Source of the DNA: an uncultured Porphyromonadaceae bacterium
GTDB lineage: Bacteria > Bacteroidota > Bacteroidia > Bacteroidales > Muribaculaceae
Direction of reading: 5' to 3'
Assembly: GCA_947573485.1 (NCBI GenBank)
Contig: CANPGB010000001.1
Coordinates: forward strand, 124,001-188,000
DNA: 64,000 nucleotides
In this document: in pieces, positions 11,332 to 22,903 of the stretch
Numbering within the stretch: the first letter of the stretch is position 1
Layout: every line of letters starts with the position of its first letter
Position numbers and translations under genes: made by a program
The notes under the pieces: model-generated
The model's database searches: none
Seen by the model: the letters and a program-made list of their open reading frames with translations, nothing else
Told to the model about the DNA's origin: nothing

Positions 11332-12204
11332 TCATGCCTCAGGAACGAAGGTATATGAACCTTCGGCCTCTACCTCGAAGCTGCCCGACATGGTCACGGG
11401 GTTGCAGTTGAATTCAAGTTCAAAATCGTCGGCAAAATCGAGCTCGCCGCTGAGGTCGGTAATGGGGAAGGCCGCGAAGGGGTCGTTGCCGATTTTAGGA
11501 GTGATAGCGTCGATGCTCCAGCGTGCCTTGGTGCCTGCGAAAGTGAAGGGGATATTTTCGAGCACGATGTCGAAGGCAGGCATGCCCGAAGCAAAGTTAG
11601 AGTTGCGCATGGTGATTTTGAGGCGACCGGTCTCGACGTTGAAATCGAGCTCATACACGGTCTGAACGCTCTTATACTCAGAGTTATCGGCAGTTGACTT
11701 CGATACCGTTGTGGCAAACATTGTCTGCGACGCGTACGACGACATCACATTGAAGCGGTTGTTTATAGTATATGAAAATACTATACCGGGGATATACTTA
11801 TCGTTGGCAACGCGGTTTATAAGACGCATCTCGAAAGAACTGAACAGAGGCACATTGGCGAAGCCCGACATCTCGGGAGTGAGATTGCGGCCTTTGGCTA
11901 CAATTATGGCGCCTTTTTCAATGGTCCAGGGTATATCTTTAATGGATATTGTGGGGTAAGCTGTGCCGTCGGGGGTGCGGAGGCCCGAGATAACGACATC
12001 GGCGGTGAGGTCGGTGTAGTTGAGGCGCAGCTGGTAGCCCACGCCGGTGTAAGTGGCCGAGGCCATTTGACTGATGTCTACCACATTGGCAAAGAGTGCC
12101 GGGAAGGCCTGCTCGGTAATTGTCTTGCCCGAGTCACTTGTCGATGTGCAACCGGCGCTAATCAGGAATATGATGCCTGCAAGGAGTGCTAATACTTTTT
12201 TCAT
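11332..12204 (-). CDS. Unrecognised secreted lipoprotein
   Basis: 290 residues from the ATG at 12204 (MKKVLALLAGIIFLISAGCTS), chosen over a start 12 codons upstream because it gives a clean lipoprotein signal peptide with Cys in ISAGC. The mature part is rich in beta-strand-like segments and has two similar halves (LRLNYTDLTADVVISGL and FDIVLENIPFTF). It may be one of the many Bacteroides lipocalin- or calycin-like surface lipoproteins, but I do not recognise a specific family. It is a single gene with its own -7 box. Confidence 0.75.
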   Translation of the reverse strand: MKKVLALLAGIIFLISAGCTSTSDSGKTITEQAFPALFANVVDISQMASATYTGVGYQLRLNYTDLTADVVISGLRTPDGTAYPTISIKDIPWTIEKGAIIVAKGRNLTPEMSGFANVPLFSSFEMRLINRVANDKYIPGIVFSYTINNRFNVMSSYASQTMFATTVSKSTADNSEYKSVQTVYELDFNVETGRLKITMRNSNFASGMPAFDIVLENIPFTFAGTKARWSIDAITPKIGNDPFAAFPITDLSGELDFADDFELEFNCNPVTMSGSFEVEAEGSYTFVPEA

Positions 12205-12237
12205 TGTAGTGAGAGCTTGAATAGATATATTTCGGTA

Positions 12238-12245
12238 CAAAATTA
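12238..12245 (-). promoter_or_regulatory. -7 box for the lipoprotein gene
   Basis: TAATTTTG on the minus strand, 33 bp upstream of the ATG at 12204. A weak -33-like TTGC lies 19 bp further upstream. Confidence 0.5.
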
Positions 12246-12336
12246 CACATTTAATGCCAAACGTGCAATAGGGCCCGGAGCGGTGCGAACTTCAGGCCTG
12301 AAAATCAGCACTTATAGCGCATGTTTTAAACAATTA

Positions 12337-12368
12337 TTTGCACAGCTCAATATTTATTATTAATTTTG
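12337..12368 (+). promoter_or_regulatory. Orphan plus-strand promoter
   Basis: TTTG (12337-12340), exactly 20 bp, then TAATTTTG (12361-12368): a perfect match to the Bacteroidetes promoter consensus. No plus-strand protein gene follows; an intrinsic terminator lies about 66 bp downstream. Confidence 0.8.
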
Positions 12369-12374
12369 CCTGCG

Positions 12375-12464
12375 AAAGTGTGATATACATGCAGTTAAAT
12401 GCAACATGTTTTTTATAGATTGTAGATTATCAGAGGGCTCTGTCGCGAGATACAGCCCTTTTTT
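12375..12464 (+). ncRNA. Candidate small RNA of about 90 nt
   Basis: The consensus promoter at 12337-12368 predicts initiation near 12375. The transcript would contain a first hairpin (ACATG...CATGT, 12387-12411) followed by U-rich sequence, and would end in an intrinsic terminator. The terminator stem is AGGG + CTGT pairing with ACAG + CCCT (12434-12459), with a 2-nt bulge and an 8-nt loop, then six T (12459-12464). No open reading frame worth calling lies inside. Both flanking genes are on the other strand, so neither explains the promoter or terminator. I do not recognise it as 6S, tmRNA, SRP or a known riboswitch. Confidence 0.6.
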
Positions 12465-12467
12465 ATT

Positions 12468-13022
12468 TCACAGACTTTCCCAGAATTTATCTTCGACACC
12501 GTTACAGTGATTTATGGCGCGCGAAAGCACGAACAGATAGTCGCTCAGGCGATTCACGTAGCGGCATAACGCGGGGTCAACGGCCACACCCTGTGCCGCG
12601 AGGCTTGCTATGCGGCGCTCGGCACGGCGCACCACAGTGCGCGCGATATTGGCTCTGGCAGCATCGGGGTGACCGCCTGGGAGCACAAAGCGGTTGTGGC
12701 GGGGCAGGGTAGAGTCGAGCTCGTCGATGTCGGCTTCAAGGGCAGCCACGGCGCTGTCGGGGAAAGGCGCGGGCTGCCACTTCGACTCTGCCTCGGTGGC
12801 GAGGGCGCAGCCGATGTCGAACATGCGGTTCATGGCTGCGGTGAGGGTGGCGTGCGCCTGCGCAGGGATATGCTGCGAGGCTTCGAGCAGGCCGAGCCAC
12901 GAGTTGGCTTCGTCGATAGTACCATAGGCTTCGAGGCGCGCGCAATCTTTGGCTACGCGCGTGCCTCCCACGAGCGATGTTGTACCGGCGTCGCCGGTGC
13001 GGGTATATACGTTGCTTTTCAT
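12468..13022 (-). CDS. Cob(I)yrinic acid a,c-diamide adenosyltransferase (PduO type)
   Basis: A 184-residue cytoplasmic enzyme that transfers the adenosyl group of ATP to cob(I)alamin or a corrinoid. Family signatures are VYTRTGDAGTTSLVGG at the N-terminus (ATP binding), EAYGTIDEANSWLG, ARTVVRRAERR and the C-terminal YVNRLSDYLFVLSRAIN. Length is normal for PduO-type enzymes. No other cobamide gene is nearby, so it may serve corrinoid salvage. The short gap to the AT-rich nuclease gene upstream (31 bp) would allow read-through from that module. Confidence 0.93.
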   Translation of the reverse strand: MKSNVYTRTGDAGTTSLVGGTRVAKDCARLEAYGTIDEANSWLGLLEASQHIPAQAHATLTAAMNRMFDIGCALATEAESKWQPAPFPDSAVAALEADIDELDSTLPRHNRFVLPGGHPDAARANIARTVVRRAERRIASLAAQGVAVDPALCRYVNRLSDYLFVLSRAINHCNGVEDKFWESL

Positions 13023-13053
13023 TATATGTTATGGTCTTATGGCAAGAGACATC

Positions 13054-13530
13054 TCATGCCACCAAATCAGGGCTTCCCGACGAAACTTGTTTAAGAGAGC
13101 ATCTGTGCTTTTCTTTAAAAGTTCTTTTGGCGGCCTCAAATTTAGGGTTGGATTTGCTTGCAGGGAACGACTTGGCTACAATGCGGGCATGACGTTCGTT
13201 GATGCTATTATGCTTCAATTTTTTATTAGACATGCTGGCATCCAATTGCTTTAGCGCATGCTCGACATCGGTTCCTTTAAGCTCTATAAAAATAGCTTTC
13301 CAATTGTTGTTCTGTGGATTTTCTTCCTGTTTAGCAAGAACAAGATAATCGCACTTATTACCCTCCGATATAATATGGCCATCCACTTGATATGCCACGC
13401 ATGTGCGACGGGCTCCAAACTTGAGGCGATATTCAGTGCGCTGCTCCTTCAAAGAAAGATTTTCACGGAGGCCCAATGGGAGTCGGGGTGCAAAGTCGTT
13501 GATAAGAACAGAATGTAGAGATTCAGCCAT
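13054..13530 (-). CDS. Small PD-(D/E)XK nuclease-like protein
   Basis: 158 residues, not recognised as a named family. The middle has the layout of a restriction-endonuclease fold: an acidic residue in an N-terminal helix (RTEY, Glu33), Asp61 in KCDYLVL, then a hydrophobic strand ending AIFIELKG with Glu83-x-Lys85, and a following helix (EHALKQL). That D...ExK arrangement is the PD-(D/E)XK catalytic core. The C-terminus is Lys/Arg-rich. The gene starts 3 bp after the ATPase stop codon, so both are on one transcript. GC is about 40%, against about 60% in neighbours. Nuclease activity is inferred from the motif only. Confidence 0.65.
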   Translation of the reverse strand: MAESLHSVLINDFAPRLPLGLRENLSLKEQRTEYRLKFGARRTCVAYQVDGHIISEGNKCDYLVLAKQEENPQNNNWKAIFIELKGTDVEHALKQLDASMSNKKLKHNSINERHARIVAKSFPASKSNPKFEAAKRTFKEKHRCSLKQVSSGSPDLVA

Positions 13531-13533
13531 AAG

Positions 13534-14757
13534 TTACTGACAAATAATATCATTAAGTTTATCTATTCTATCTTCGACAAGTTCCGATACACCGTCAATA
13601 TAGGTGCCATTGACCATGTAGATATCAGAGTCAATAGCATTTTCAACGGTTCCGTTCTCTGTAATATAGTAAGCGCCTATACTTCCTTTAGGCAATATAT
13701 ATTTTTCAGAGATGACATCAATGGTTTCAGCTTCATTGATTTCATAAGCTTCAGAGGCAGCCATCAGCACATTCAATGCCGAAAGTATATATGGGCTGTG
13801 TGTGGCGATAGAAATCATACTATGCCCCTCTTCTGATTTTTCGTTTGCCTGTTTAATAGCGGCAACCATATGATATAAAAGCTGCGCCTGAGATTCCGGA
13901 AAAAGATTCTGCTCCGGCTCTTCTATAAAGAATACCGCACCCTTATAGGTCAATAAGTTCTTTGCGACTCTGCTTTCAATAGAATCTTTATTAAAAGCGG
14001 AGTCTTCCTGTAAGAGGTCTGCCACTATATTCATCAAGTCGGTTTTGCTCAGATTTGCTTTAGAACCAACCATTTGAACAAGAGAGTTCACCATAACCTC
14101 CAACGGCAGAGCCGATTGCACTCCGCTTGAAGCATAAAATGGCGAAAATTCCTTTTGTTTATCAATCATACGCAAGACCTCGCCTTTATTTTTGTCGTAA
14201 AAATATTCAAGTTGAGGTGTTACAACTAATTGTAAGGCGTTTTCGCGTGTATATGTTTCTCTTATTTCATCCCACTCGAAGATGAAATTAAACAGAACAT
14301 CGAAATCCTTTGGTCTATACCACGATTCGATATTCTTAATTGCTGAAATTAAGTTGCGCTCAGAAGGTATGAAACTGAGTTTTGCATTATATGGTGCAGC
14401 CCCGGGAATTGGCTCAATCTTAGCGTTAGACTTCAATCCGCCTTTGAACTCAATACAGTAAGCATCGCCAATATATTTAATCTCACTCTCTTGATTAAAA
14501 AACTTCGAATCGAACCTATAAAATTTAATCAGTTCCTGTATGAAACGGTAGTGATGTGTATAAGCATACTTTACCCCTCTCCCATTTCTTTGCTTGCCGA
14601 TACAGAGAAGTTTCTCAATCCACCTGCAATGGCTCAATATTTTCAGCAGGGTACTTTTTCCGGTACTCTGCTTGCCAATGAATAAGTTGACGGTCTTTAA
14701 GTTTACAACTCCTGTATCCTTAAGGGGACCAATATTTTTGACGTGTATTGAGGCCAT
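13534..14757 (-). CDS. AAA/ABC-type ATPase (AAA_15/OLD-like), candidate defence protein
   Basis: 407 residues from MASIHVKNIGPL (14757), preferred to a start 8 codons upstream because this is the usual N-terminus of the group. It has Walker A GKQSTGKST (28-36), a signature-like ASSGVQSALPL (209-219), Walker B VFFIEEPE with Glu279/Glu280, and the switch histidine THSPYIL (His320). This is the RecF/SMC-like ATPase head of OLD, PARIS AriA and Gabija-type proteins. The C-terminus is short and lacks a recognisable TOPRIM domain. The nuclease activity is presumably supplied by the downstream small protein. GC of about 40% points to horizontal acquisition. Confidence 0.85.
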   Translation of the reverse strand: MASIHVKNIGPLKDTGVVNLKTVNLFIGKQSTGKSTLLKILSHCRWIEKLLCIGKQRNGRGVKYAYTHHYRFIQELIKFYRFDSKFFNQESEIKYIGDAYCIEFKGGLKSNAKIEPIPGAAPYNAKLSFIPSERNLISAIKNIESWYRPKDFDVLFNFIFEWDEIRETYTRENALQLVVTPQLEYFYDKNKGEVLRMIDKQKEFSPFYASSGVQSALPLEVMVNSLVQMVGSKANLSKTDLMNIVADLLQEDSAFNKDSIESRVAKNLLTYKGAVFFIEEPEQNLFPESQAQLLYHMVAAIKQANEKSEEGHSMISIATHSPYILSALNVLMAASEAYEINEAETIDVISEKYILPKGSIGAYYITENGTVENAIDSDIYMVNGTYIDGVSELVEDRIDKLNDIICQ

Positions 14758-14778
14758 AAAATATAAAACTTGTTTCGG

Positions 14779-14786
14779 CAAAGTTA
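14779..14786 (-). promoter_or_regulatory. -7 box before the ATPase-nuclease module
   Basis: TAACTTTG on the minus strand, 22 bp before the ATPase start codon, with no clear -33 box. A second possible promoter lies at 14882-14913 (CTTG, 20 bp, TATTTTTG) and would give a leader of about 118 nt. The sequence does not decide between them. Confidence 0.4.
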
Positions 14787-14892
14787 CTCAAAAAATTCAA
14801 ATACTCACTCATCTTCCGATAGCAAAACCGAGATTCACAAGCGAGCCGTATATAATTGAGAAAAGCAATGGGCTTTTGGCGCAAAAATAAGC

Positions 14893-14926
14893 AAAAAAAG
14901 CGCGCCGACCAAGAGGTGGCGCGCTT
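14893..14926 (-). terminator. Intrinsic terminator after the receptor/lipoprotein operon
   Basis: On the minus strand AAGCGCGCC pairs with GGCGCGCTT across an 11-nt loop, followed by a run of seven T. It lies 18 bp after the lipoprotein stop codon. Confidence 0.88.
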
Positions 14927-14944
14927 GATTATAGCTTGTTAAGA

Positions 14945-16930
14945 TTACTTGCCGGTGCCGTTCTCCCACCATGTGCAGCTTACGGCGGTAAACTCTGCGG
15001 GTGCTGTCACCTCGTAGATTACGTCGTAGTAGTCGGTGGTAGTGCCGTTATAGGCGGCGAAAGTAATGGTGTAGAGCACTTCCACGCCGTCGAGGGGCTT
15101 GGCATCGGGGTTGAGGATAGCCAGGGCGGCGGGGAGGGTCTCGTAGACGAAACGGTTCTTTTCGAGCTCTACAATCTCGTCGTCGGTCATGGAGCCGTAC
15201 TCAGCGGGGTACTGTGCACGTGCGGGCGAGGGACGGAGGTCGACGTTGCCCTGGTATGCCGAGGCGCCGGAATAGTACTCGTTGTTGCCGTAGGAGGTTA
15301 CGTAGAAGAGACCACTCTTTATGTTGGTGTCGCCAAGAGGACGGCATATGTTCTCGAATACCCAGTCGACGATAGTCTGGTAGTAGAGCGAGCTCAGTGG
15401 CTGGCTCTTGCCTGCCTCAAGATAAATCTTGACGTTGGGGTTATAGAGCCACTTGCCGTTGTTGCGCACGAACTGCGAGGTTTCGGTCTCGACGTAGCTT
15501 GCGGGAGTCCACTTGCCGTCTTCACCGCAGATGTAGGCCGAGCAAACGTAGTTTGTTGCACCGCCCTTATACTGCTGCCAGTAGACGTATTTGGTATCGT
15601 CTACCACGCCGTAGGGGTACTTGAGGTCGAGCCAGCGGCTGAGGTATGGCTCTGCCACGCTGAGGTTGGCGTATTTCTGACCCATGTCGGTGTAGTCGGA
15701 GTTCTGCAAAACGGTGAAGCCTGTTGCGGGAGCCCACTCAGAGCCGTCGAAGTGGTAAACGGCGTTTACGGCGGTGTAGGGCACGTTAGCCTTGATGCGG
15801 GCGGGAGCCTTGGCAGCGCCGCTCACACCTGTAATCTTCAGGTTCTTCACTTCCCAAGTACCCGACTTGCCGTCTTCGCTCACATATTTGAAGCCGAGCT
15901 GAATTTTCTTGCCTGCGAAGGCGTCGAGCTTGATGTCGCCCGAGTTGCCGAAGGTCCAGCTGTCGTTGCCTGTGTATTCGGGGATAGTCACCTGCTTCCA
16001 TGCGGCACCGCTCTCGCGGGCCCAGAGGGTGCAGTTGGCCTTTGCAAACTCGGCGTCGGGGAATTTATTCACCACGTGCTCAAAAGCGAGGGTTACGTCG
16101 GTGTAACCGGCGAGGTCGATTTCGGGCGAGATGAGCCACGACTCGGTAGCATAGCTTACGTTGTCTTTGAAAGCCGAGGCCTTGGCGCCGTAGTTGGCAC
16201 CACCCCACGACCACACGAAGGTGAGGGCTTCGGGCATAATCACGTCGTCCATGGTGAAGGCTCCGAGGCTTTCGGTGAACGATTCAGCGAAAATCTCCAC
16301 GGGACCTGCGGGCTGCACGGGCTGGTCGCCACCGAACACGGGTTCGGTCTGAGCCTCGTTGTAGGAAACGATGCAGTAGGTGCCTTTCTCTGTGTCGATG
16401 AAGTCGCCGAGGGCAACGGGCACGTAGTCGGCAGCGGGCATGAGGGGAGTGAAGGCGGTGATGTAGTCTTCGCCACCCCATACGTCGTCGCGGTAGAAAT
16501 CTTCAGAGATAGTGTATTTCTGCACCTTGGCGGCCTCCACAAGTTCCTCGGGCTCAGCTACTGCCACCTGGTAGGTGACTTTCACCGACGAGCCGTCGGA
16601 TAGGGTGTAGTAGGGGAAGTCGGTGCTTGCAAGGAAGGCGGGCACATACTCCGAAGCGGGAGCGGCGGCCGAGAAGCGGTGCAGAGTACCTACCTGAGCG
16701 AGGGCTTCGGAGCCTTCGTCACCTGCGAGAGCCTTGTTGGTGGCGTTAGAGGCTATTTTGGAGTACTCGTCGTCGGAGAGGGTATATTCGATTGCCTGCT
16801 GATTGGAGAAAGGCTGGTCGACAAATTCCTCAAATCCGTTGAGGTGGTTGTTCCAGGAGTTTTCGCCGCAGGAAGCCGCAGCGGCGCAGAGACCGGCGAC
16901 AATGAATGTGCGGATATATATTGTTTTCAT
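14945..16930 (-). CDS. Surface lipoprotein with choice-of-anchor-J-like domain, partner of a TonB receptor
   Basis: 661 residues with a lipoprotein signal peptide (MKTIYIRTF...AAAASCGEN, Cys21). The middle, about 225-380, contains ESFTESLGAFT..., WLISPEIDLAGYTDVTLAFEH and FKYVSEDGKSGTWEVKNLKI, the pattern of the jelly-roll 'choice-of-anchor J'/cleaved-adhesin domain. The flanks look like additional beta-rich modules. It starts 16 bp after the TonB-dependent receptor gene, the position SusD normally takes, but has no SusD signature. It probably sits on the cell surface and passes a ligand to the receptor; the ligand is unknown. Confidence 0.8.
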   Translation of the reverse strand: MKTIYIRTFIVAGLCAAAASCGENSWNNHLNGFEEFVDQPFSNQQAIEYTLSDDEYSKIASNATNKALAGDEGSEALAQVGTLHRFSAAAPASEYVPAFLASTDFPYYTLSDGSSVKVTYQVAVAEPEELVEAAKVQKYTISEDFYRDDVWGGEDYITAFTPLMPAADYVPVALGDFIDTEKGTYCIVSYNEAQTEPVFGGDQPVQPAGPVEIFAESFTESLGAFTMDDVIMPEALTFVWSWGGANYGAKASAFKDNVSYATESWLISPEIDLAGYTDVTLAFEHVVNKFPDAEFAKANCTLWARESGAAWKQVTIPEYTGNDSWTFGNSGDIKLDAFAGKKIQLGFKYVSEDGKSGTWEVKNLKITGVSGAAKAPARIKANVPYTAVNAVYHFDGSEWAPATGFTVLQNSDYTDMGQKYANLSVAEPYLSRWLDLKYPYGVVDDTKYVYWQQYKGGATNYVCSAYICGEDGKWTPASYVETETSQFVRNNGKWLYNPNVKIYLEAGKSQPLSSLYYQTIVDWVFENICRPLGDTNIKSGLFYVTSYGNNEYYSGASAYQGNVDLRPSPARAQYPAEYGSMTDDEIVELEKNRFVYETLPAALAILNPDAKPLDGVEVLYTITFAAYNGTTTDYYDVIYEVTAPAEFTAVSCTWWENGTGK

Positions 16931-19928: not shown

Positions 19929-19953
19929 CTGCGGGTCTATGGGTATTTAAGGA

Positions 19954-20277
19954 TTAGGCTTTGAACCCTTCTTCAAAGGGGTTGGGGATGCCACCGCCGT
20001 TCTTGGGGGCGTTTTTGGGCATCTTGCGCTGGATTTCGCCGAAAGTCTGCTCGTACTTTGCCACGTTGTCGCGGAGAGCGAAGAGGAGGTTCTTGGCGTT
20101 TTCGGGAGTCATTATAATGCGGCTCTGTACCTTAGCCTGGGGCATGTTGGGGGCTACAGAGATGAAGTCGAGGTAGAACTCATTGCCGCTGTGCGAGATA
20201 ACGGCAAGGTTAGAGTAGTGGCCTGCAGCCACTTCGGGAGTAAGCTCAATTTTGAGCTCCTGCTGTTTGTTTTCCAT
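19954..20277 (-). CDS. DUF3467 family protein (left copy)
   Basis: 107 residues, matching the DUF3467 family of short cytoplasmic proteins common in Bacteroidetes (QELKIELTPEVAAGHYSNLAVISHSGNEF... then SRIIMTPENAKNLLFALRDNV). The function is unknown. The C-terminal tail is Pro/Gly/Asn-rich. It starts 2 bp after the NigD-like gene and is the last gene of the operon before the hairpin at 19894. An identical copy lies at 21153-21476. Confidence 0.88.
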   Translation of the reverse strand: MENKQQELKIELTPEVAAGHYSNLAVISHSGNEFYLDFISVAPNMPQAKVQSRIIMTPENAKNLLFALRDNVAKYEQTFGEIQRKMPKNAPKNGGGIPNPFEEGFKA

Positions 20278-20279
20278 TT

Positions 20280-20984
20280 TTATGCGTTAGGTTTGATTGT
20301 TGAACTTATTTTATCTATTGTTATCTGCTTCTTGCCTGAGTCGAGCGAGTAGTTGAGCTGCACGCCCTGGCAGGTAGAGCGGTTGAAGAGGTCGCTGAGC
20401 GAGTACGACATATAATATATGAGCTCGCGCGTCATGCCCATTGAAACCTCCGGCTCGAAGATGAAGTAGAGCTGGGGGTAAGCGTCGGTGAGTGTGGCCT
20501 CATCGACAACAATGCGACATACCTTGGGTGCGCGGTCGGTGCTGAACGAGAAGCCGAAGTTGAGGTATTGGCCTGAGCGCCAGGCTTCGGCACGCTGCAC
20601 GTTGCGGCTGAAGAAGTTAGAGGTAGTGTCGGCGGCGGCAACGGGGAAAGCCCCGCCTTTACCGTAGGTCATGGCGGCGGCCACAATGCTGATTTCGGCG
20701 TTCTGGAACTGAGCCTCACCCTCGGTCTGGTAGCTGATGAGCACACGGTCGCCCACCTTTACGGCGTCTTTGTTCATGGCGGTTCCGGCACGGAGGGTGA
20801 TGAGGGGCGAGTCGTTTTCTTTCTGGAAAGTGAAAACGGTGCTGTTGTCGCCCATTTGGCTTACTGTGACAATGTCGGTGTACACGGGCGACACGGGAGT
20901 ATCGCTGTTGCTTGAGTTACACGCCGGAAGCACAAGTACAGCAGCGGCAATGAGGGCGGCTGCCGCGTTGCGGAAAAGTTTCAT
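20280..20984 (-). CDS. NigD-like lipoprotein (left copy)
   Basis: 234 residues with a lipoprotein signal peptide (MKLFRNAAAALIAAAVLVLPACNSS, Cys22). The mature part resembles NigD-like proteins of Bacteroides: an OB-like N-terminal segment (FTFQKENDSPLITLRAG...VKVGDRVLISYQT) and a C-terminal beta domain (YLNFGFSFSTDRAPKVCRIVVDEATL). NigD was named from a bacteriocin-type locus, but these lipoproteins occur widely and their role is unsettled. It is identical to the copy at 21479-22183. In this copy the upstream gene is only a lolD remnant. Confidence 0.8.
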   Translation of the reverse strand: MKLFRNAAAALIAAAVLVLPACNSSNSDTPVSPVYTDIVTVSQMGDNSTVFTFQKENDSPLITLRAGTAMNKDAVKVGDRVLISYQTEGEAQFQNAEISIVAAAMTYGKGGAFPVAAADTTSNFFSRNVQRAEAWRSGQYLNFGFSFSTDRAPKVCRIVVDEATLTDAYPQLYFIFEPEVSMGMTRELIYYMSYSLSDLFNRSTCQGVQLNYSLDSGKKQITIDKISSTIKPNA

Positions 20985-21026
20985 GAAGCTTAAATAATTG
21001 AGAGATTGTGATTGTTTTATGATTCC

Positions 21027-21146
21027 TTATAATTTGATTTCTTTTTCTTTAACGTCGACTATGCGGCCGTCGGCCATACGCACAACAACGTCGGAGTCGG
21101 CCGCAAGTCCCTCGTCGTGAGTCACGATAACGAAGGTTACGCCGTC
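21027..21146 (-). pseudogene. 3' fragment of lolD created by the tandem duplication
   Basis: 120 bp identical to 22226-22345. It encodes the last 39 residues of LolD (the H-loop [12 protein letters not shown] onwards) plus the stop codon, but has no start, Walker A or signature motif. It is cut at exactly the duplication breakpoint. It cannot give a functional ATPase and simply lies between the two gene pairs. Confidence 0.92.
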
Positions 21147-21152
21147 TAAGGA

Positions 21153-21476
21153 TTAGGCTTTGAACCCTTCTTCAAAGGGGTTGGGGATGCCACCGCCGTT
21201 CTTGGGGGCGTTTTTGGGCATCTTGCGCTGGATTTCGCCGAAAGTCTGCTCGTACTTTGCCACGTTGTCGCGGAGAGCGAAGAGGAGGTTCTTGGCGTTT
21301 TCGGGAGTCATTATAATGCGGCTCTGTACCTTAGCCTGGGGCATGTTGGGGGCTACAGAGATGAAGTCGAGGTAGAACTCATTGCCGCTGTGCGAGATAA
21401 CGGCAAGGTTAGAGTAGTGGCCTGCAGCCACTTCGGGAGTAAGCTCAATTTTGAGCTCCTGCTGTTTGTTTTCCAT
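21153..21476 (-). CDS. DUF3467 family protein (right copy)
   Basis: 107 residues, the same protein as at 19954-20277. It starts 2 bp after the right NigD-like gene. Downstream it is followed not by a terminator but by the lolD remnant and the left NigD-like gene, so a single transcript could cover both copies. Gene dosage of both proteins would be doubled. Confidence 0.88.
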   Translation of the reverse strand: MENKQQELKIELTPEVAAGHYSNLAVISHSGNEFYLDFISVAPNMPQAKVQSRIIMTPENAKNLLFALRDNVAKYEQTFGEIQRKMPKNAPKNGGGIPNPFEEGFKA

Positions 21477-21478
21477 TT

Positions 21479-22183
21479 TTATGCGTTAGGTTTGATTGTT
21501 GAACTTATTTTATCTATTGTTATCTGCTTCTTGCCTGAGTCGAGCGAGTAGTTGAGCTGCACGCCCTGGCAGGTAGAGCGGTTGAAGAGGTCGCTGAGCG
21601 AGTACGACATATAATATATGAGCTCGCGCGTCATGCCCATTGAAACCTCCGGCTCGAAGATGAAGTAGAGCTGGGGGTAAGCGTCGGTGAGTGTGGCCTC
21701 ATCGACAACAATGCGACATACCTTGGGTGCGCGGTCGGTGCTGAACGAGAAGCCGAAGTTGAGGTATTGGCCTGAGCGCCAGGCTTCGGCACGCTGCACG
21801 TTGCGGCTGAAGAAGTTAGAGGTAGTGTCGGCGGCGGCAACGGGGAAAGCCCCGCCTTTACCGTAGGTCATGGCGGCGGCCACAATGCTGATTTCGGCGT
21901 TCTGGAACTGAGCCTCACCCTCGGTCTGGTAGCTGATGAGCACACGGTCGCCCACCTTTACGGCGTCTTTGTTCATGGCGGTTCCGGCACGGAGGGTGAT
22001 GAGGGGCGAGTCGTTTTCTTTCTGGAAAGTGAAAACGGTGCTGTTGTCGCCCATTTGGCTTACTGTGACAATGTCGGTGTACACGGGCGACACGGGAGTA
22101 TCGCTGTTGCTTGAGTTACACGCCGGAAGCACAAGTACAGCAGCGGCAATGAGGGCGGCTGCCGCGTTGCGGAAAAGTTTCAT
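21479..22183 (-). CDS. NigD-like lipoprotein (right copy)
   Basis: 234 residues, identical to the copy at 20280-20984, with the same lipoprotein signal and Cys22. It lies 42 bp after the intact lolD gene. Perfect identity, including silent positions, means that the duplication is very recent, is kept homogeneous by gene conversion, or is an assembly artefact. Confidence 0.8.
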   Translation of the reverse strand: MKLFRNAAAALIAAAVLVLPACNSSNSDTPVSPVYTDIVTVSQMGDNSTVFTFQKENDSPLITLRAGTAMNKDAVKVGDRVLISYQTEGEAQFQNAEISIVAAAMTYGKGGAFPVAAADTTSNFFSRNVQRAEAWRSGQYLNFGFSFSTDRAPKVCRIVVDEATLTDAYPQLYFIFEPEVSMGMTRELIYYMSYSLSDLFNRSTCQGVQLNYSLDSGKKQITIDKISSTIKPNA

Positions 22184-22225
22184 GAAGCTTAAATAATTGA
22201 GAGATTGTGATTGTTTTATGATTCC

Positions 22226-22903
22226 TTATAATTTGATTTCTTTTTCTTTAACGTCGACTATGCGGCCGTCGGCCATACGCACAACAACGTCGGAGTCGGC
22301 CGCAAGTCCCTCGTCGTGAGTCACGATAACGAAGGTTACGCCGTCGCTGTCGCGGAGGTCGAAGAAGAGGCGGTGGAGCTCGGCACGGTTATGCGAGTCG
22401 AGGCTCCCCGAGGGCTCGTCGGCAAACACCACCTTGGGCTTGTTGATTAGCGCACGCGCAACGGCGGCACGCTGGCACTCGCCGCCCGAAAGCTCGGAGG
22501 GGTGGTGGCTGTCGCGGCCTTCGAGGCCAAGCCGCTTCAGCAATTCAGAGGCCGCGGCATAGGCCTTGGCAGGCCGCTCACCCGCTATAAGAGCAGGCAT
22601 GGCCACGTTCTCAACGAGGGTAAACTCGGGCAGAAGGCGGTGGAACTGGAACACAAAGCCGATGTTGGTGTTGCGGAACTGCGACAGCCGTCGGTCGGGC
22701 AGGGTAGTGACGTCGGCACCGTCGTAGAGCACAGAACCGCTGTCGGGGCTCATGAGTGTGCCTAATACCTGCAGCAAAGTGCTCTTTCCGGCGCCCGATG
22801 GGCCCACTATGGTGGTTACGAGGCCGGGGCGCACACAGAGGTCGATGCCCTTGAGGACTTCAAGAGCACCGAACGACTTGTGTATATTCTTTGCTTCGAG
22901 CAT
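22226..22903 (-). CDS. lolD: LolD-type ABC transporter ATP-binding protein
   Basis: 225 residues from [12 protein letters not shown] (22903), preferred over a start 4 codons upstream because it aligns with the family N-terminus. Walker A is GPSGAGKST (34-42), the signature [15 protein letters not shown], Walker [13 protein letters not shown] and the H-loop VTHDE. This is the MacB/LolD subfamily that powers lipoprotein release or efflux together with FtsX-type permeases. No permease is adjacent. It follows the SlyD-like gene by 15 bp. Its last 120 bp are repeated at 21027-21146. Confidence 0.88.

Follow-up and report, generated by a model that had tools for sequence, protein, structure and literature searches.

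A divergent gene pair of an OLD-type ATPase and a small PD-(D/E)XK-like protein, inserted into a Muribaculaceae genome and related to a predicted defence kind

Gene pair and its conserved residues

The window analysed here is a stretch of 64,000 nucleotides from contig CANPGB010000001.1 of an uncultured gut member of the Muribaculaceae (assembly GCA_947573485.1, positions 124,001 to 188,000). It contains two adjacent genes on the minus strand, the gene coding for an ATPase (P0001) being first and the gene coding for a small protein (P0002) lying 3 bp downstream. The protein lengths of 407 and 158 aa, the coordinates and the 3-bp gap had all been given exactly in a preliminary description of the locus, which named no strand. 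Its value of about 40% for the GC content of the pair also holds (0.401 for positions 13054-14757), whereas the figure of about 60% for both sides was slightly high, the 1-kb flanks of the pair having values of 0.548 and 0.567 and the window without the insert a value of 0.57. The features of the locus are as follows.

12468-13022: left flanking gene, which looks like PduO (name given by eye)
13023..14944, no strand assigned: inserted stretch between the PduO-like gene and the conserved 661-aa gene, the spacing of which was compared in relatives
13054..13530, minus strand: small PD-(D/E)XK-like protein (P0002), 158 aa, linked to the PDC-M29B family via relatives
13246..13248, minus strand: Q95, 67 of 68 small proteins; predicted helix glutamine following E-x-K
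13276..13284, minus strand: E83-L-K85, 68 of 68, partly forced by the search pattern; predicted catalytic E-x-K
13348..13353, minus strand: C60-D61, 68 of 68; predicted metal-binding Asp after an invariant Cys
13534..14757, minus strand: OLD/AAA_15-type ABC ATPase (P0001), 407 aa, without TOPRIM; matches PADLOC PDC-M29A
13789..13803, minus strand: T319-H-S-P-Y323, presumably the H-loop region; S321, P322 and Y323 in 46 of 46 aligned ATPases, H320 in 45
13912..13926, minus strand: I278-E-E-P-E282, which we take to be Walker B; E279, E280 and E282 in 46 of 46
14122..14130, minus strand: S210-S211-G212, putatively ABC signature-like; G212 in 46 of 46, S210 and S211 in 44 of 46 each
14650..14676, minus strand: G28-KQSTGKST36, presumably Walker A; G28, G33, K34 and S35 in 46 of 46
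14945-16930: right flanking gene, 661 aa, conserved

Between loci L060 and L062, the dN value is 0.021 against a dS of 0.513 for the ATPase gene and 0.05 against 0.657 for the small gene, and in pairs among L060, L061 and L062 dN is about one tenth of dS or less for both genes, so that both look real and under purifying selection. Loci L056 and L057 are too alike to judge, with dN against dS being 0.004 against 0.03 and 0.011 against 0.03.

The ATPase matches AAA_15 (1.7e-12) and AAA_21 (4.9e-10) in Pfam, with no TOPRIM domain found by the same search, which agrees with the earlier view of a two-gene module with an OLD-type ATPase lacking TOPRIM. Its best PADLOC family is PDC-M29A (1e-49, 167.9 bits), aligned over residues 1-352 of the protein and 1-353 of the 410 positions of the profile, and the family next to it reaches 49.8 bits. 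A profile of the ATPase matches 26 distinct solved sequences, the best being the OLD protein 6p74 (3.6e-15) followed by PtuA of retron and Septu systems, AriA, a retron Eco8 OLD nuclease and GajA; Uup and a small number of transporters rank below these.

The small protein was compared in an alignment of 68 rows consisting of the window protein, all three loci from viral contigs and 64 of the 66 loci from a genome scan (L044 and L052 were left out). D61, E83, L84 and K85 are identical in all 68. Part of this invariance is built in, because the other 67 rows were gathered by DNA patterns and most of these required ELKG (or DG). Among 21 pattern-free rows including the window, E83-L-K85 is present in 21 and D61 in 20, while the first-set alignment of 24 proteins has C60 in 24 and D61 in 23; the previously proposed D61...E83-x-K85 motif is therefore present and not due to chance. 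The position of E29 is occupied by E or D in 67 of the 68 rows, and that of D50 by D in 66 and by E in two. The PD-(D/E)XK layout has the order E ... D ... E-x-K ... Q, which the predicted residues of the small protein appear to fit.

There are some differences in the small protein between loci. In L015, D61 is replaced by E (C60-E). Cys-rich N-terminal additions resembling metal-binding fingers, with the patterns CKCF...CKC or CxC...C, occur in L071, L101, L014, L015, L017 and L019, and the small protein of L066 (7974-8906) is extended at the C-terminus to a total of 310 aa.

Pairing, insertion and distribution

Homologues of the small protein were collected from relatives within the genus, plasmids, phage-labelled scaffolds, the phylum, viral contigs and a genome scan, the last of which led from 179 candidate stretches to 66 relatives. 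Earlier searches, namely a genome scan with a single protein and a scan of viral contigs, had resulted in 33 pattern matches and two matches, respectively, with zero relatives in either. An ATPase ORF is located directly upstream on the same strand for all 24 distinct small proteins of the first set, window included, and directly before the small gene in 65 of 65 testable loci of the genome scan. Of the 66 scan loci, 64 were scored by script, L071 was scored from its listing and L043 was excluded (contig end); in L049, L051 and L052 the ATPase ORF itself is cut by the contig end, and near-identical loci are common to both sets (L043/L044 with L005, L058 with L006 and L067 with L002). The conserved adjacency that the preliminary description proposed to look for is thus borne out at 24 of 24 and 65 of 65 loci. 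Homologues routinely lying apart and at core-genome locations were named there as evidence against a module; for the small protein, none was seen away from an ATPase gene among the loci examined.

Of 89 pairs, 72 have overlapping ORFs, and in 39 the overlap is exactly 4 or 8 bases long. The distances of the two proteins were compared over 86 pairs in which both genes are nearly complete, near-identical pairs included; they are correlated with a Mantel r of 0.84 compared to at most 0.11 in 2000 shuffles, and r is 0.53 for comparisons with an ATPase identity below 40%. Shared descent explains part of this correlation, and across the 86 pairs nothing suggests that ATPases and small proteins have exchanged partners. 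In L026 (1801-2969), a viral contig, the ATPase is found in two ORFs beside an intact small protein, which is either a broken gene or a sequencing error.

The PduO-like gene was searched for in 41 genomes of the genus, 35 of which matched, and 30 loci including the window's own were taken. The ATPase-nuclease pair is absent from all 29 stretches of other genomes. Eight of these (L110-L115, L118, L119) contain the PduO-like gene and, after it, the second flanking gene. In five relatives (L110-L114) the aligned parts of the two are separated by 88-172 bp with no pair between them, and in the remaining three the distance is 639-725 bp, compared to 1,922 bp in the window. The empty site in the five relatives indicates that the pair is an insertion in this chromosome, as the preliminary description had supposed in proposing transfer into the genome, and the pair is probably a recent acquisition by the genome of this gut bacterium. 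No convincing terminal repeats were found at the borders of the insertion.

Within the genus, two of 37 genomes have the small gene, and at the level of the phylum it was found in 15 of 395 sampled ones; both counts include the window's own genome. Since such patchy presence is what an accessory gene would show, it was counted in favour of a mobile defence module. The nearest plasmid relative is 71.5% identical and is located on a mobilizable Muribaculaceae plasmid. In a quick tree of ATPases the window groups with this plasmid and with a copy of its genes from a MAG; the rows of the tree carry titles of eight phyla, these being the submitters' titles, many of them of MAGs and one Bacillota title looking wrong. 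The closest plasmid copy, L005 (CP061010.1, 5407-7679), is on a MOBV mobilizable plasmid and has a resolvase-like gene (name given by eye) directly after the pair, making the plasmid a plausible transfer vehicle. The contigs of L067 (JAMPBQ010000039.1) and L027 (G036:C32) are both 14012 bp long with identical ATPases; the former is titled Clostridium sp. though the matching genome falls in the window's genus, so it is probably a misnamed MAG.

Concerning the neighbourhood, 53 ORFs were called in the window; removal of the pair and of eight ORFs judged to be duplicate or spurious left 43 for a PADLOC scan with a threshold of 1e-10. Only dGTPase (one gene), mad2 (two genes) and mad3 (one gene) matched, which are read as housekeeping or generic. 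Among 132 first neighbours of homologues, a set that excludes seven near-duplicate loci, 14 proteins longer than 900 aa and any protein containing unknown residues, no PADLOC or Pfam family matches more than three; these neighbours are very mixed, with many metabolic genes included. Support for a defence island, as envisaged in the preliminary description, is therefore weak, and the defence-island argument was dropped, being unsupported by either the window scan or the 132 neighbours.

Several individual loci have neighbours of other kinds. The B. finegoldii copy, L006 (NZ_OY725969.1, 10761-12465), is inside a polysaccharide cluster, and the pair is located among polysaccharide or capsule genes in L055, L073 and L075 too, such loci coming from Bacteroidota and one Lachnospiraceae record. 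A general link to capsule loci was rejected, as at least two such genes within 8.5 kb were present in only four of 81 loci and no control set was available. The flanks of L066 look defence-rich, with a SIR2-like protein and another AAA ATPase upstream and a Dam-like methylase downstream (names given by eye).

Fold of the small protein and relation to described systems

P0002 has no match better than E 0.03 in Pfam, PADLOC, NCBIfam or PHROGs, its single Pfam match being at E 0.2, which is chance level. The 68 aligned small proteins match HSDR_N best (5.8e-5, two of 68), as well as HSDR_N_2 (0.0028, three of 68) and NucS_C (0.0074, two of 68), all three of which we take to be PD-(D/E)XK nuclease families. 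Seven further Pfam families match one small protein each, the best of them being the unrelated-looking DUF7133 (5.8e-4).

In hhalign comparisons, five NucS_C rows gave an E value of 7.6e-5 with a probability of 62 and 23 HSDR_N rows gave 0.0023 with a probability of 12.5, D, E-x-K and Q being in register in both alignments. The controls gave 0.023 (glycosyltransferase-like), 0.087 (PduO-like) and 0.23 and 0.52 (ATPase); they comprise only three unrelated families, 261 proteins tried having resulted in two families, one of which is the module's own ATPase (L065, 6776-7960). The NucS_C rows represent five of 18 loci, those with the longest matches, including L163 which lacks E-L-K, while the HSDR_N rows represent 23 of 24 loci (L189, cut by the contig, was left out). 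HSDR_N_2, with 19 of 20 loci used (L146 was dropped for stops in the extracted frame), was rejected as a parent family because its E value of 0.017 is no better than that of the glycosyltransferase-like control, and VRR_NUC was found in none of 99 genomes, so no alignment was possible. As evidence for the predicted fold, the NucS_C comparison is moderate and the HSDR_N comparison weak, and HSDR_N_2 contributes nothing; the small number of controls weakens the HSDR_N argument and leaves the NucS_C argument standing. No sequence match for the small protein was found among solved structures, and its putative nuclease fold is suggested by the motifs together with weak profile matches. The PD-(D/E)XK-like core proposed earlier is supported in this sense by the conserved motif and its register with the NucS_C and HSDR_N profiles.

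The preliminary description could name no described system with this pair, which turned out to be wrong: PADLOC-DB contains the candidate PDC-M29, and dyads of OLD-ABC ATPases with PD-(D/E)XK proteins are reported in the accessible part of PMC12839542. P0002 does not match PDC-M29B at E 1, but with a threshold of E 0.001 the model matches 33 of the 68 aligned small proteins, and with one of E 1 it matches eight of ten relatives scanned singly. L045, which is 61% identical to P0002, scores 7e-4 against PDC-M29B, while L044 and L050, also near P0002, have no match. The match of the ATPase to PDC-M29A together with the matches to PDC-M29B via intermediates suggests that the pair belongs to the PDC-M29 family, on a branch hardly reached by the PDC-M29B model. 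Like the window pair, PDC-M29 consists of two genes, which the PADLOC rule, as we understand it, requires to be adjacent, and the pair, with adjacent genes and the ATPase first, agrees with this layout. The A models of PDC-M47 and PDC-M56 also match seven of seven aligned ATPases, with each B model matching only one or two of the 68 small proteins. PDC-M29, M47 and M56 were not found named in the main texts of the literature searched, nor was a defence assay of any PDC-M29 member. Most PDCs were derived by guilt-by-embedding and await experiments, according to the accessible part of PMC12988326, and the PADLOC candidates PDC-M63AB and PDC-S04 are described in that of PMC12409345 as having shown no activity in the native host.

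In the portion of PMC12839542 available, which cites an earlier survey of ABC ATPases as reference 52, OLD-ABC ATPases with an HNH, PD-(D/E)XK or PIN nuclease as partner are reported for 594 taxa at BREX and related loci. The dyads with PD-(D/E)XK REases described there include the same two protein classes as the window pair; they are backup effectors beside BREX or related loci, whereas the window pair stands alone, the REase families being compared by class only. The available part of PMC13092281 contains nothing on the ATPase-nuclease pair.

In OLD and Gabija proteins the TOPRIM domain is located C-terminally to the ATPase, whereas the window ATPase has the T319-H-S-P-Y323 motif and ends at residue 407 without TOPRIM. 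Septu (PtuA and PtuB) and the PtuAB proteins of Ec78-type retrons have an ATPase and a nuclease split as here, with PtuA among the best solved matches of the ATPase, and PtuB is an HNH nuclease; no HNH family in Pfam matches P0002 or the 68 aligned proteins, and PtuB is absent from their PADLOC matches. A retron of the Ec78 or Eco8 type, which would have a reverse transcriptase gene and a retron RNA next to the ATPase, was rejected on the basis of the flanking genes, which are conserved in relatives lacking the pair and were read by eye as having other functions, and of Rfam, which gave no match in 12000-16000. PARIS (AriA and AriB) likewise consists of an OLD-type ATPase and a separate effector, and AriA is the second-best PADLOC match of the window ATPase (1.1e-13). 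The AriB TOPRIM/DUF4435 was not matched by P0002 (Pfam, PADLOC, NCBIfam) or by the 68 aligned proteins (Pfam), so the earlier statement that the small effector is neither DUF4435 nor HNH holds as far as Pfam is concerned. The PARIS effector is a TOPRIM nuclease according to the accessible text of PMC12839542, in contrast to the PD-(D/E)XK-like candidate effector of the window. The kind is already in print as a prediction, and the window pair is a divergent member of this known predicted defence kind.

Candidate function and alternatives

With a probability of roughly 0.6, the pair would be a self-contained, horizontally moved anti-phage module of the PDC-M29 or OLD-ABC plus REase kind, with an ATPase-gated PD-(D/E)XK effector. 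Constant pairing, apparent purifying selection, insertion, kinship of the ATPase with the OLD type and a PD-(D/E)XK active-site pattern can be read from the DNA; the complex, its gating, the trigger, the target and cell death are modelled on PARIS and Septu. In PARIS, tRNA is cut by AriB once AriA has sensed a phage product and activated it (PMC12839542, accessible part), and Septu cuts tRNA-Tyr (PMC13096335, accessible part); by analogy, the ATPase may restrain the small nuclease and release or activate it upon infection. The ATPase would function as a scaffold and sensor keeping the small nuclease inactive until a phage product, such as a DNA mimic, an altered DNA end or a nucleotide change, changes its ATP-bound state. 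The altered state would free or activate the small nuclease, which would cut tRNA or DNA using D61/E83/K85 and a metal ion, and this cutting would halt the production of phage and probably be costly for the cell too. Against a defence role stand the location of the pair outside a defence island here and the lack of an assay in the literature searched.

It is unlikely, though worth considering, that the pair is a direct restriction-like DNA nuclease, the ATPase of which would place the nuclease on foreign DNA, be it at ends, at replication forks or on unmodified DNA, so that the invader is cut without cell death. The profile matches that fit the motif belong to DNA-cutting families (HSDR_N, NucS_C), and DNA is also what OLD-type ATPases such as GajA act on. 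Yet there is no conserved third gene for modification or specificity, no Pfam family matching more than three of the 132 neighbours, and PARIS and Septu, two relatives with a split ATPase and effector, have tRNA as their target as far as described in the accessible parts of PMC12839542 and PMC13096335.

A toxin-antitoxin or element-stability module, with a nuclease toxin, an ATPase brake, a benefit for the carrier and phage defence being secondary or absent, would be in line with the copy on a mobilizable plasmid and with the isolated position of the pair in the window, where the surrounding genes look like housekeeping genes. We consider it improbable, as a large ATPase akin to phage-sensing ATPases seems to exceed the needs of an antitoxin. 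Repair proteins can also contain NucS- and HsdR-like cores, and they include ABC ATPases of the RecF/SMC kind, so a role in DNA repair or other cell maintenance with no defence function is conceivable; with a presence in two of 37 genomes, a low GC content, an empty site in relatives and titles of eight phyla, it is very improbable.

If the ATPase-gated anti-phage module is indeed what the pair represents, one kind of ATPase sensor would control three unrelated nuclease folds (TOPRIM, HNH and PD-(D/E)XK), which would bear on how sensors hold and release their effectors, and gut Bacteroidales would gain a mobile two-gene defence seen only partly by PADLOC models. The PADLOC scan recognises the window ATPase and not its partner, and the PDC-M29B partner model covers the Bacteroidales branch poorly at best. 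It may also be, as we suggest tentatively, that the pair belongs to a large, deep-branching class of split OLD-type defence systems, in which a small protein with a Cys-Asp/Glu-Leu-Lys/Gln PD-(D/E)XK pattern replaces TOPRIM or HNH nucleases next to a common ATPase sensor. Different nucleases would then have been fitted onto one infection-sensing ATPase, providing a third active-site chemistry for PARIS-like immunity. As the family is compact and widespread, it is directly testable; the pair is worth an assay, though it is no surprise.

Elsewhere in the window, positions 19948-22345 contain a perfect 1199-bp tandem duplication with two identical pairs of genes coding for 107-aa and 234-aa proteins, which is either a recent duplication or an assembly artefact.
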